DNA of 27,740 nt from a virus: IMG/VR virus record IMGVR_UViG_3300048687_000061, positions 1 to 27,740 of that record; one strand, written 5' to 3'. The notes below the pieces were generated by a model, which worked only from the letters and a program-made list of their open reading frames with translations, ran no database searches and was not told where the DNA came from. Below are positions 22,741 through 26,466 of the stretch, in pieces (within the stretch, counting starts at the first letter, position 1; every line of letters begins with the position of its first letter). The position numbers and the translations under genes were made by a program.

Positions 22741-22783
22741 CGACGAGGCCCCCGCCGGGGGAACCGTAGCGGGGGCCTCGTCG
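22741..22783. terminator. Strong bidirectional hairpin terminator
   Basis: CGACGAGGCCCCCGC (22741-22755) / GCGGGGGCCTCGTCG (22769-22783), a 15-bp perfect stem with a 13-nt loop. It insulates the HTH gene from the operon downstream of it. Confidence 0.8.
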
Positions 22784-22839: not shown

Positions 22840-23052
22840 TCAAGCGGCGGCGGGGGTGTCGCGCTGTGTGGCGTAGGCCTGGACGTCGGAGAGGGAGAAC
22901 CAGCGTTGCCGTGGCGACGAGCCGGGGGCGGGAGTGAGGCGGCCGCGGCGGACGAGCTGGCGGACGCCGTCGAGGCTGATGCCGAGGGCCGTGGCGGTCT
23001 GGTGGGCGGTGAGGTAGCCGGGGCGCAACAGCTGTGACTCCATGGCCCCCAT
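22840..23052 (-). CDS. Excisionase-type HTH (helix-turn-helix 17) protein
   Basis: 70 aa from ATG 23052, or 67 aa from ATG 23043. GYLTAHQTATALGISLDGVRQLVRRGRLTPAP is the MerR/Xis-like winged HTH of short excisionase and regulator proteins, and RWFSLSDVQAYATQR is the family-typical end. It probably bends DNA at att sites or regulates transcription. It is isolated from any visible integrase. A terminator-like hairpin (23066-23094) ends only 14 bp before the first ATG, leaving no room for a promoter of its own. Confidence 0.75.
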   Translation of the reverse strand: MGAMESQLLRPGYLTAHQTATALGISLDGVRQLVRRGRLTPAPGSSPRQRWFSLSDVQAYATQRDTPAAA

Positions 23053-23279: not shown

Positions 23280-23314
23280 GATGTCGGCTCCTGTCTCGTG
23301 TTCGGGATGGGGAA

Positions 23315-23355
23315 CCGGGGCGGCCGGCTAGCTGCCAGGCGGACGGCCGCCCCGG
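23315..23355 (-). terminator. 12-bp hairpin abutting the GGTAGAY array
   Basis: CCGGGGCGGCCG (23315-23326) / CGGCCGCCCCGG (23344-23355), a perfect 12-bp stem with a 17-nt loop, ending at the base before the first repeat of the array. On the minus strand it follows the 203-aa gene and could terminate the cassette transcript, or be part of the repeat locus. Confidence 0.65.
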
Positions 23356-23443
23356 GGTAGATGACCGGGTAGATAGCCCGGTAGATGGCGGTAGATGAGC
23401 CGGTAGACACGCAGGTCAGGCGGCGGTAGACGGTGCGGTAGAC
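23356..23443. repeat. Array of seven GGTAGAY repeats, ~12-bp period
   Basis: GGTAGAT at 23356, 23368, 23380 and 23390 and GGTAGAC at 23402, 23425 and 23437 (start positions). Spacings are 12, 12, 10, 12, 23 and 12. Each is preceded by C or G, giving an 8-bp unit [C/G]GGTAGA[T/C]. All lie in the same orientation. The two right-hand copies are inside the last codons of the 203-aa gene and one straddles the region before its stop; the rest are non-coding. Iteron-like; see findings. Confidence 0.75.
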
Positions 23444-24027
23444 GTCTCCTCGGTGGCGACCGGGGAAGGGGCCAGATCCACGCGGCGGACGCCCCTCGTC
23501 GGGCCCTTCCCGCCGGCCTTCACCTTGGGGTGGACGGGGATGCCCAGGGCCTCCAACTGCGCGCGCAGATCGGACACCTGCCAGGAGGCCGTGAGGGCCT
23601 CGGTATCGGGGCGCTCCTGGAGGTGGTCGAGGACGGTGGATAGGTGCACCGCGGAGTCGCTGCCCATGAGGGTGAGCAGGAGGGCGCGCATCGTCTCCCC
23701 AGGGGTCGCCGTCGTGGAGGGTTCGGCGACCGGTTGCTCGGGCGTGTGGCCGGCCTTCCAGGCGGCCCGGCACCACAGGGCGGCGAGGAGTCCGAGGAGC
23801 CAGGGCAGCGCGCGGATGATGCCGTACGTGACGTAGGCGAGCAGGCCGACGAGGAGGAGCCGGGCGAGGGGGCCGAGGGCGGCCTTCCACCCGGTGAGGT
23901 CGTCGCGGCGACCCGCGCGGATCCAGGCCGTGAGGCGCGTGGTGCGGCGCTGCCAGACGACGGCGCTGCCGCGGGCGAGGCGGTCGGCGGCGTGCGCGCG
24001 GGCGGCTCGGACGAGGAGGCGCTTCAC
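23416..24027 (-). CDS. Membrane protein with C-terminal winged-helix-like part
   Basis: 203 aa, GTG 24027 overlapping the previous stop (GTGA). A very basic N-terminus (VKRLLVRAARAHAADRLARG, QRRTTRLTAWIRAGRRDDL) precedes two hydrophobic helices (LGPLARLLLVGLLAYVTYGIIRALP, WLLGLLAALWCRAAW). A soluble domain follows (MRALLLTLMGSDSAVHLSTVLDHLQ, DLRAQLEALGIPVHPKVKAGGKGPTRGVRRVDL) that reads like a small winged helix. The last codons overlap a repeat array. Last gene of the cassette. It resembles Streptomyces plasmid or ICE spread proteins in layout, without a certain family match. Confidence 0.65.
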   Translation of the reverse strand: MKRLLVRAARAHAADRLARGSAVVWQRRTTRLTAWIRAGRRDDLTGWKAALGPLARLLLVGLLAYVTYGIIRALPWLLGLLAALWCRAAWKAGHTPEQPVAEPSTTATPGETMRALLLTLMGSDSAVHLSTVLDHLQERPDTEALTASWQVSDLRAQLEALGIPVHPKVKAGGKGPTRGVRRVDLAPSPVATEETSTAPSTAA

Positions 24028-24533
24028 AGCAGGCCCGCCCCCTCGACGCTGCCGCGGAGCACAGCGCCAGCCTGGTTGATCAGGTCGGGCAGCCAGTTCA
24101 GCGCCGAGGCGACCCCGGCCGTGAGGCACAGGCAGACGCCGCAGAAGATCCCGCCGACCATGCGCTTGCGCTCGTCCTTACCTGCGGACCGGTACGCGAA
24201 GATCGTTGCGCAGGTGATCAGGAAGACGATCACGGCGCCCTCGGGGGTGAGCTGGCCGAGGCTCCCGTGCGTGATCGCGGCCTCGGAGGTCTTGCCGGTG
24301 GCGGCCTGAACTCCCTTGCTGCCGCCGGTGTTCGCAGCGCGCGCGGAGCATCCGGCGAGCCACCCGAGGATCCCGCCCGCGCACATCGTGGATACGGCGC
24401 CGAGCAGGGAGCCGAGCCCGAAGCTCTTGAGCTTGGCGGGGTCGCGGTCACCCTTCCACCAGGGGCGCAGGTTCGCCCACAGGACGACGAGGACGATCGC
24501 GACGCCCGCGAAGGTGAGGCCGGTGCCGGTCAT
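24024..24533 (-). CDS. Multi-spanning membrane protein of the Spd-like cassette
   Basis: 169 aa, ATG 24533 in an ATGA overlap. One N-terminal helix (LTFAGVAIVLVVLWANL), a charged linker (RPWWKGDRDPAKLKSFG), then three or four further hydrophobic segments (GSLLGAVSTMCAGGILGWLAG, GAVIVFLITCATIFAY, MVGGIFCGVCLCLTAGVASAL). The loop AANTGGSKGVQAATGKTSEAAITHGSLGQLTPEG resembles phage/plasmid membrane proteins of actinobacteria. No enzyme motif. Probably part of a membrane complex with the products of the overlapping genes. Confidence 0.65.
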   Translation of the reverse strand: MTGTGLTFAGVAIVLVVLWANLRPWWKGDRDPAKLKSFGLGSLLGAVSTMCAGGILGWLAGCSARAANTGGSKGVQAATGKTSEAAITHGSLGQLTPEGAVIVFLITCATIFAYRSAGKDERKRMVGGIFCGVCLCLTAGVASALNWLPDLINQAGAVLRGSVEGAGLL

Positions 24534-25093
24534 CGGTGGACTCCTGTGACGAAGGTGATCGGGTCGAACCAGTCGAGGACGCCGAGGCTCCCGATCGCGG
24601 TGGTGATCAGCGCGAGGCGGAGCAACCACCGCTTCCGTCGTAGGTCGAGCAGGTACGTGGCGGCGAGGGCGACGGCCGCGGTGGTGTAGGCGCCGCCGAT
24701 GGTGTCGGCCCGCATCTCGTGCAGGACGCGAGCCCAACCGGTGGCCAGGGACCAGCCGTTGAAGAGGGGTAGGACGCTGACAGCGCCGGCCGTGAAGGTG
24801 TGCCACGGTCGGATCCACTGCCACAGCCACGCCCAGTTGCGGCGCTCGCGGGGCTCGGTGTCGGGCGCGGGCTCCGGGGTGCGGCGCGGGGCCCTCTTGG
24901 GGCGCGGGGCGGGCTGGTCGGTGTTGCTGTCGAGGATGTCGTCGAGCCAGTCACGGGCGCGCGGCTCGAATCCTGCGGGCAGGTGCGCCGGAGTGGCCGG
25001 GAGCGCCTGCTCGTCGGCGTCGGGGCCTACGCCTGCTCTGCGGAGGAGGAAGCGGACCCTCTTCTCGTCGGGCCCGGGGCGGGTGTTGGTCAT
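24530..25093 (-). CDS. Membrane protein with cytoplasmic N-terminal domain, Spd-like cassette
   Basis: 187 aa, ATG 25093 in an ATGA overlap with the 458-aa gene. The first 90 residues are soluble and charged (RPGPDEKRVRFLLRRAGVG, PAGFEPRARDWLDDILDSN, then a Pro/Arg linker). Next come WLWQWIRPWHTFTAGAVSVLPLFNGWSL and further helices (GGAYTTAAVALAATYLLDL, WLLRLALITTAIGSLGVL), about three spans. The family is not recognised. Order and overlaps indicate a stoichiometric partner of its neighbours. Confidence 0.65.
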   Translation of the reverse strand: MTNTRPGPDEKRVRFLLRRAGVGPDADEQALPATPAHLPAGFEPRARDWLDDILDSNTDQPAPRPKRAPRRTPEPAPDTEPRERRNWAWLWQWIRPWHTFTAGAVSVLPLFNGWSLATGWARVLHEMRADTIGGAYTTAAVALAATYLLDLRRKRWLLRLALITTAIGSLGVLDWFDPITFVTGVHR

Positions 25094-26466
25094 GGGGTGG
25101 GCCTCTCGGCGAGGGCGTCGCGTACCTGCTCGGCGCGCGGCTGGCCAATGTGGAGTGCCTTCTTGAGGGCGCGGATCGAGGCGGGGCGGCCGCGGTGGGT
25201 GCGCCTGTACTCGGCGTCGAACTTGGTGGCGCGGTCGAGGAGTGCGGCGGGTACGTCGCCGTCGGGTACGCGGACGTGTACCTCGTCGCGGGTACGGTCC
25301 GCGGCGAGTACGGGTACGGGCGCGGCCATCGGGTTCGGGATGGCATCGGTCAGGGCGAGATCGAGGACGAGCCCCTTCGATGGCACGGCCTCTGTCTCGG
25401 GAAGTACGGGCGCCGGGTGTACCTGCGCAGGTGGGGCCGTGATGCGGGCAGCCATGCGTACCTGCGTCTCGGACACGGGTACGCCGTGCTGGGTACACAG
25501 CGCGGCGATCTCGGCGGGCGCCTTGGTGGGGTGCGCGGCGAGTACGCGGAGGACTGCGTCCATCGGGTCGAGGCGCCGGAGTTCGGCGCCGGCCACACCG
25601 AGTGGCGTGGCCGGGTGCGGCTCGTCGAGTACGGGCGTACTCGCCCACGGGGACACGAGAGGTACGGTCGCGAGTTCGTCCGAGGTACGGCGCGCGGCGA
25701 GTTCGAGGAGCAGCCGGTGGCGCTGCGCTCCGTCGGTGCCGGCGCCGGAGCGGGCCACGGCCGCAGCGAGGCGACGGCGGGCCCACGCGCGACGCTTGGG
25801 TCGTGAGGCGAGGCGCACGGCGCGCGCGGTGGCGCGGTCGCGGGTGATCTGCTCCGCGGTACGGTTCCGCGCGGCGAGCCCGAGCCGGGAGAGCAGCCGC
25901 TCGCGCAGCTCGCGGCCGATCATCGGCAGGAGACCGGACGACAGGGCGGCCGGGCGGGCGACGCGGATCTCCAGGCCCATGGCGAGGTGCCACAGCATGC
26001 CGGCCATGACGGGGCCGATGACGGCGCGGACGGTGCCGCCGACGAGCCCGGACTCGGCGTAACAGGGGATGACGAGTACGGCGGTGATGAGCCACATGAG
26101 GAGGCCGGGCACGCCGCCGGTGCCTGCCTGCTCGTCGGTGGTGGTCGCGGCCTTATGGGCGCGGGCCATGATGCCGCAGGCGAGGAGGGCGAGTTCGGCG
26201 GCGGCGAACATGGCGGCGCGCTCGGTGGCGTCGGCCATGTCGAGCCAGTTCTTGGCGAACCGCCAGCTGGTGTCGCCGCTGTAGGCGGTGCAGACGAGGG
26301 CGCCGGCCGCGGCGACGAGGACCGCGGCGGGCGGGCGGCGCGTGCCACGGAGGGCGCGGGCGACGCGGCGCAGCGCGACGGCGCCGAGGATGAGCCCCAC
26401 GACGGCGGCGACTATGGCCGGCCGCGGGTTGGCGACCGCCCACTCGGTGAGCTGGTCAACGATCAC
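25090..26466 (-). CDS. Large membrane protein, DUF2637/SpdB-like, with C-terminal HTH-like region
   Basis: 458 aa, GTG 26466 after CTGGAG. Residues 1-175 hold five hydrophobic helices (AIVAAVVGLILGAVAL, AVLVAAAGALVCTAYSG, AAMFAAAELALLACGIMA, GLLMWLITAVLVIPCYAES, AVIGPVMAGMLWHLAMGLEI), a layout like DUF2637 proteins of Streptomyces plasmids. A basic cytoplasmic part follows with DAVLRVLAAHPTKAPAEIAALCTQHGVPVS and, at the end, GRPASIRALKKALHIGQPRAEQVRDAL, both HTH-like. It is probably a membrane-anchored DNA-binding transfer or spread protein. The gene is also unusual for its density of GTAC tetramers (25122-25685). Confidence 0.65.
   Translation of the reverse strand: MIVDQLTEWAVANPRPAIVAAVVGLILGAVALRRVARALRGTRRPPAAVLVAAAGALVCTAYSGDTSWRFAKNWLDMADATERAAMFAAAELALLACGIMARAHKAATTTDEQAGTGGVPGLLMWLITAVLVIPCYAESGLVGGTVRAVIGPVMAGMLWHLAMGLEIRVARPAALSSGLLPMIGRELRERLLSRLGLAARNRTAEQITRDRATARAVRLASRPKRRAWARRRLAAAVARSGAGTDGAQRHRLLLELAARRTSDELATVPLVSPWASTPVLDEPHPATPLGVAGAELRRLDPMDAVLRVLAAHPTKAPAEIAALCTQHGVPVSETQVRMAARITAPPAQVHPAPVLPETEAVPSKGLVLDLALTDAIPNPMAAPVPVLAADRTRDEVHVRVPDGDVPAALLDRATKFDAEYRRTHRGRPASIRALKKALHIGQPRAEQVRDALAERPTP

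Follow-up and report, generated by a model that had tools for sequence, protein, structure and literature searches.

The plasmid proteins TraA and TraB combine membrane helices with a winged helix that reads short direct repeats at the clt locus (PMC3583192; PMC4170104). The clt of pWTY27 overlaps its binder's own gene, taking in the final 16 bp (PMC3583192). Among the Spd proteins, the membrane protein SpdB2 of pSVH1 interacts with TraB and also binds DNA, and the plasmid-encoded SpdA2 of pIJ101 has its site, sps, inside its own gene (PMC4170104). In type III partition systems, the winged-helix protein TubR is paired with a row of direct repeats, tubC (PMC5016525).

A repeat array that shares elements with each of these systems is present in a 27,740-bp IMG/VR virus record, the whole of which is referred to here as the window. 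The evidence supports a cis-acting, conserved array located at the 3′ end of a gene cassette for small hydrophobic proteins; a predicted winged-helix protein encoded by gene D of this cassette is its putative cognate binder. No description of the array or of the function of the gene D family was found in the open literature searched. A likely protein–site pair is thereby identified, from sequence alone, in the uncharacterised phage gene family phrog_5650, which is represented in more than 60 phage contigs.

The array shares with the clt/TRS loci of pSVH1, pIJ101, and pWTY27, which are recognised by TraB or TraA, both the short direct repeats and a membrane protein with a C-terminal winged helix, as predicted for gene D. 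However, the phage array is accompanied by neither an FtsK motor domain nor a motor gene, is much more regular (11–12 bp), is carried mainly by phages, and has repeats that change between lineages in step with the winged helix. Because the motor is missing, the array is not classed as a TraB/clt system; TraA/TraB on clt is nevertheless the closest working parallel, and by analogy, gene D and the array can act like the recognition half of clt. The phage cassette of small, putative membrane proteins resembles that of the Spd systems (SpdB2 of pSVH1 and SpdB of pIJ101), and the properties of SpdB2 suggest that a spread-type role would suit the gene D cassette. In contrast, the DNA binding of SpdB2 is described as non-specific, and a cognate repeat array is not described for it. 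The sps site of SpdA2 is a palindrome, whereas the phage site is an array of direct repeats. Compared with TubR/tubC, the array lies 3′ of the operon and not 5′, the phages have no match to a tubulin-like partner, and TubR is small and not membrane-anchored, while gene D is a predicted membrane protein.

The repeat array and its conservation among relatives

The window contains an HK97-type head and tail module, including capsid, prohead protease, portal, and tail tube genes. On its plus strand, GGTAGAY starts at positions 23356, 23368, 23380, 23390, 23402, 23425, and 23437, and the spacings of these seven positions (12, 12, 10, 12, 23, and 12) match exactly those of the periodic same-strand array reported in the first-pass annotation. 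Across the full window, 13 matches to GGTAGAY are observed against 2.2 expected, and the densest same-strand stretch of 88 bp holds seven units, compared with a maximum of two in 200 simulated Markov-1 windows. The neighbouring genes lie on the minus strand, where the unit reads [AG]TCTACC (Table 1). An eighth unit lies in the 23-bp gap in degenerate form; this is the conserved anchor CTGACCTGC, which includes the TGA stop of gene D and the place of which is taken by the full unit TCTACCTGC in a second clade. Two of the window units fall within the last codons of gene D (...TSTAPSTAA-stop) and five are non-coding, such that the array runs into coding sequence without breaking it, as had been claimed.

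Table 1. Features of the array locus in the window.
Feature	Position	Strand	Basis
Hairpin CCGGGGCGGCC...GGCCGCCCCGG, adjoining the array, independent	23315..23355	.	
Array, seven exact [AG]TCTACC units	23356..23443	-	Unit positions; offsets kept in ~85 other loci
Array units	23437-23443, 23425-23431, 23402-23408, 23390-23396, 23380-23386, 23368-23374, 23356-23362	-	
Anchor CTGACCTGC, degenerate eighth unit, holding the gene D stop codon	23411..23419	-	
Gene D, phrog_5650, 203 aa, proposed array-binding membrane protein	23416..24027	-	Prediction and co-variation
Gene C, phrog_16379, ~169 aa, hydrophobic, conserved beside gene D	24024..24533	-	
Gene B, hydrophobic, relative of Kromp gp83	24530..25090	-	
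Gene A slot, 458 aa, membrane protein	25090..26466	-	

Pattern scans of viral contigs returned 40 and 54 matching stretches. The pattern matches were pooled with relatives retrieved through the similarity of their gene D proteins, and duplicates were removed, yielding 89 array regions, which include a few double registrations of one array on an alternative anchor match and correspond to ~85 non-redundant loci. In most regions, the CTMC cores are located at −26, −14, (−3), +9, +21, +31, +43, and +54 relative to the anchor, with unit offsets moved by 1 or 2 bases in some. Each array-bearing phage record matched by the paired-unit pattern contains a single array locus; the units of phage VWB are too altered for this pattern, and the match in L073, an unrelated record, is a chance one. 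Among the 79 relatives picked by protein and not by repeat, at least three strict units are present in 62, and most of the remainder have an array with altered units or one that is displaced relative to the stop codon. AACTACA/G units are found in L139, L146, and L148, and CTCTCCG units in L125 and L131; the array is degenerate in L122, inverted in L152 and L153, and located entirely 3′ of the stop codon in L103, L142, L147, L149, L151, and L159.

The exact core pattern occurs in 4 of 393 Streptomyces genomes, and a gene D relative in 46 of 296. Thirty of these chromosomal relatives, mostly remote, were extracted; judged by eye, ~20 have an array and ~10 have no recognisable one (L179–L182, L184, L188, L190, L192, L195, and L196), the latter also differing in their C-terminal tail. 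The array-less relatives L179–L182, L184, L188, L190, L192, and L195 share a tail with AGQ/GQSNNNN-like runs coded by AAC repeats, the position of which approximates that of the array in other relatives and which is possibly another DNA-level element.

Several features point to constraint at the level of DNA. The non-coding units carry 1.2–1.4 bits per base versus 0.5–0.7 in the spacers. The in-frame units impose the serine codon TCT, which is used in 109 of 137 cases (80%) at the array end and is otherwise rare in gene D (15 of 402, 4%). Additionally, array and anchor together occur as the reverse complement in L152, L191, L193, and L194. The occurrence of the array past the stop codon or in inverted orientation in some relatives suggests that the site is one of double-stranded DNA. 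Two observations had been named in the first-pass annotation as refuting its reading of the array: related elements with intact cassettes that lack the repeats, and repeats conserved only where they are coding. The outcome favours the reading on this point, given the conserved non-coding units and the arrays wholly past the stop, although ~10 of the 30 mostly remote chromosomal relatives have no recognisable array.

Gene D, its cassette and linear plasmids

The N-terminal helix of the gene D protein is basic; a strongly hydrophobic stretch occupies residues ~51–93, and a winged helix is predicted at residues 109–181, with a mean AlphaFold pLDDT of 88 for the full protein and 82 for the winged-helix domain. 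Searching PDB sequences with an alignment of gene D gave no convincing match, and no similarity to the pIJ101 Spd proteins was detected; fold searches returned weak winged-helix neighbours, as well as VWB gp26 itself in the viral library.

The letters of the units co-vary with the winged helix of gene D, with a Mantel r of 0.54 and a partial value of 0.52 once the N-terminus, protein C, and the spacers are removed (p < 0.001; 0 of 2000 permutations as high), in a test that removes shared descent incompletely. The corresponding partial values against the unit letters are −0.05 for the N-terminus, −0.09 for protein C, and 0.12 for the spacers (p = 0.73, 0.92, and 0.07, respectively). The winged helix is closer to the array than the N-terminus and protein C are, and linked inheritance could inflate the correlation; however, the spacers, which are closer yet, show no significant effect. 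At the level of residues, GVR wings pair with RTCTACC units (mean CTCC fraction 0.09), wings in which L, A, S, or T follows GV pair with CTCC-type units (fraction 0.88–1.0), and VTVG[IV]H wings pair with AACTACA/G units. The rule is broken by some arrays, such as L115. The locus L072 combines an L139-like helix with a wing of the RTCTACC type and has RTCTACC/RTCTCCC units, which points to the wing as the putative specificity determinant. Based on the co-variation of unit letters and winged helix, gene D is the likely binder, and its product probably binds the array. The natural variants of unit and wing are ready material for a direct comparison of specificity.

Genes C, B, and A, located upstream of gene D, all encode hydrophobic stretches. 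The gene A slot holds three protein types in different phages, one of which contains DUF2637; this domain has matches in 11 of the 43 phages and on three linear plasmids, and the window gene A has no match to it. A distant match to pIJ101 SpdB (E=6.5e-6) is given by one gene A type of the phages. The location of the array at the 3′ end of a spread-like cassette, as first annotated, holds for small hydrophobic proteins, some phages having the distant pIJ101 SpdB similarity or DUF2637, and the apparent link of the cassette to Spd is a distant one. Gene A was also considered as the specificity factor and is disfavoured, since its three types share one unit and one type has different units; as these types do not track the unit, gene D is preferred as the candidate binder. 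The window gene A and VWB gp24, which belong to unrelated types, share a similar, short C-terminal segment (…LrIGQ..A..V…) of helix-turn-helix-like appearance, so that another of the cassette's membrane proteins may also bind DNA.

On the linear plasmids NZ_CP108096, NZ_CP109045, and NZ_CP109092, a homologue of gene D precedes an array of this kind, with a clear order of GntR regulator, DUF2637, two proteins, and gene D in NZ_CP108096 and NZ_CP109045. As linear Streptomyces plasmids carry the identical type of cassette together with the array, a plasmid-type function is plausible, and to this extent the earlier suggestion of such a function is borne out, although the TraB/FtsK motor was not found in the phages. 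A tyrosine integrase match is present in 25 of 43 phages, in 24 of them above the curated cut-off and with some of the records being fragments; these 25 phages therefore probably integrate, and many of the phages are temperate as judged from their gene content.

Proposed function of the array and its alternatives

We propose that the array is a double-stranded docking site for the cytoplasmic winged helix of gene D, in which one protomer would bind per [AG]TCTACC unit, such that 7–8 protomers would be arranged along ~90 bp (repeat ~11.4 bp). Because membrane association is predicted for gene D and the operon encodes hydrophobic proteins that resemble Spd, binding would tether DNA to the membrane, tying phage or linear-plasmid DNA to an Spd-like membrane complex. 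The docking-site explanation as a whole is favoured with moderate confidence, and membrane docking of DNA by gene D is likewise considered rather probable. Its most likely use would be a spread-type function in a multicellular host, in which DNA would be placed or passed at membranes or cross-walls in an Spd-like manner without an element-encoded FtsK motor; spread is suggested tentatively as the purpose, and a replication or packaging anchor would be other purposes. It is conceivable, if somewhat doubtful, that temperate Streptomyces phages possess a motor-less relative of the machinery for plasmid transfer and spread. In it, the array and a membrane-anchored winged-helix protein that co-evolves with it would attach phage DNA to a membrane complex, so as to position genomes at hyphal cross-walls or move them through these. 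If DNA does dock at the membrane, it becomes testable how phages deal with the multicellular growth and the cross-walls of Streptomyces, and the module would be common to viruses and large linear plasmids. In the motor-less scenario, the coherent switching of unit sequence between lineages would serve to mark self against non-self where several phages and plasmids share a host.

A partition centromere, in which gene D would be a TubR- or ParR-like binder segregating an extrachromosomal prophage or plasmid, is an unlikely alternative to docking. The pairing of a winged helix with direct repeats at intervals of ~11–12 bp is reminiscent of TubR/tubC (PMC5016525), and the weak fold matches include TubR. 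Selection for incompatibility would favour just such a coherent switching of unit sequence, and the cassette is found on linear plasmids. However, the array sits at the end of the operon and not at its start, the 25 phages with an integrase match probably integrate, and no match was obtained to ParB (ParB_N, 0 of 44 phage records), ParA (AAA_31, 0 of 43 phages), or the tubulin family (PF00091, 0 of 43 phages), a search that a very diverged TubZ could escape.

It is quite unlikely that the array represents replication-origin iterons or a membrane anchor of phage replication, with gene D as an origin-binding protein. Such a role would agree with the presence of one iteron-like locus per genome that overlaps the gene of the presumed binder, and iterons lie inside lambda O. 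Against it, AT content is 33% at the array and ~31% downstream, offering no AT-rich stretch, gene D has no replication-protein match, and the phages have separate replication genes, such as the polymerase and primase of VWB. The centromere and origin functions, both conceivable though improbable, are without the partner genes or the AT-rich element to be expected for them.

The reading of the array as a clt/TRS site of a TraB/FtsK-type translocase is very unlikely, despite the close similarity of the pWTY27 clt/traA locus, in which the repeats overlap the 3′-terminal part of the gene encoding a membrane and winged-helix protein (PMC3583192). As in that locus, short direct repeats overlap the gene of the presumed binder, and weak FtsK-like matches occur elsewhere on two of the linear plasmids. 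However, the searches for a TraB/FtsK gene and a ParB gene that had been advised in the first-pass annotation yielded neither: FtsK/TraB is matched in 0 of 44 phage records, full-length VWB and Kromp included, with pIJ101 TraB detected as the positive control. In addition, the gene D winged helix has no similarity to pIJ101 TraB by hmmsearch or hhalign. A clt with its motor is thus largely refuted for the phages, failing on the motor, while a motor-less clt-like site fits. Finally, an RNA or operator element that regulates the operon or the next gene is highly improbable: although the array is intergenic, lies on the transcribed strand, and is followed by a hairpin leader in a subset of loci, the genes downstream of it vary among loci, the operon start has no second paired-unit array, the orientation is not fixed, as the inverted arrays illustrate, and an Rfam search of the array gave no credible match, only chance matches far below the gathering scores.

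Flanking features

The hairpin annotated beside the array is present in the window but is a separate feature, since only 24 of 87 related loci have it 3′ of the array and since it occurs without the window-type array in a linear plasmid; it is accordingly ruled out as a part of the system. The hairpin CCGGGGCGGCC...GGCCGCCCCGG, a C-rich stretch, and GAGACAGGA..ATCATGGCACT together form a conserved leader at window positions 23281–23355, which is located 5′ of small genes in many phages and a linear plasmid, whether or not an array is present, and also at L005, L008, L015, L146, L184, L192, and L201. It has the look of a leader or terminator module that moves separately. A small excisionase/MerR-like helix-turn-helix gene lies at 22840–23052 of the window, between the array and the terminase region. 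The window also contains, at 22741–22783, the strong, terminator-like inverted repeat GAGGCCCCCGC...GCGGGGGCCTC.
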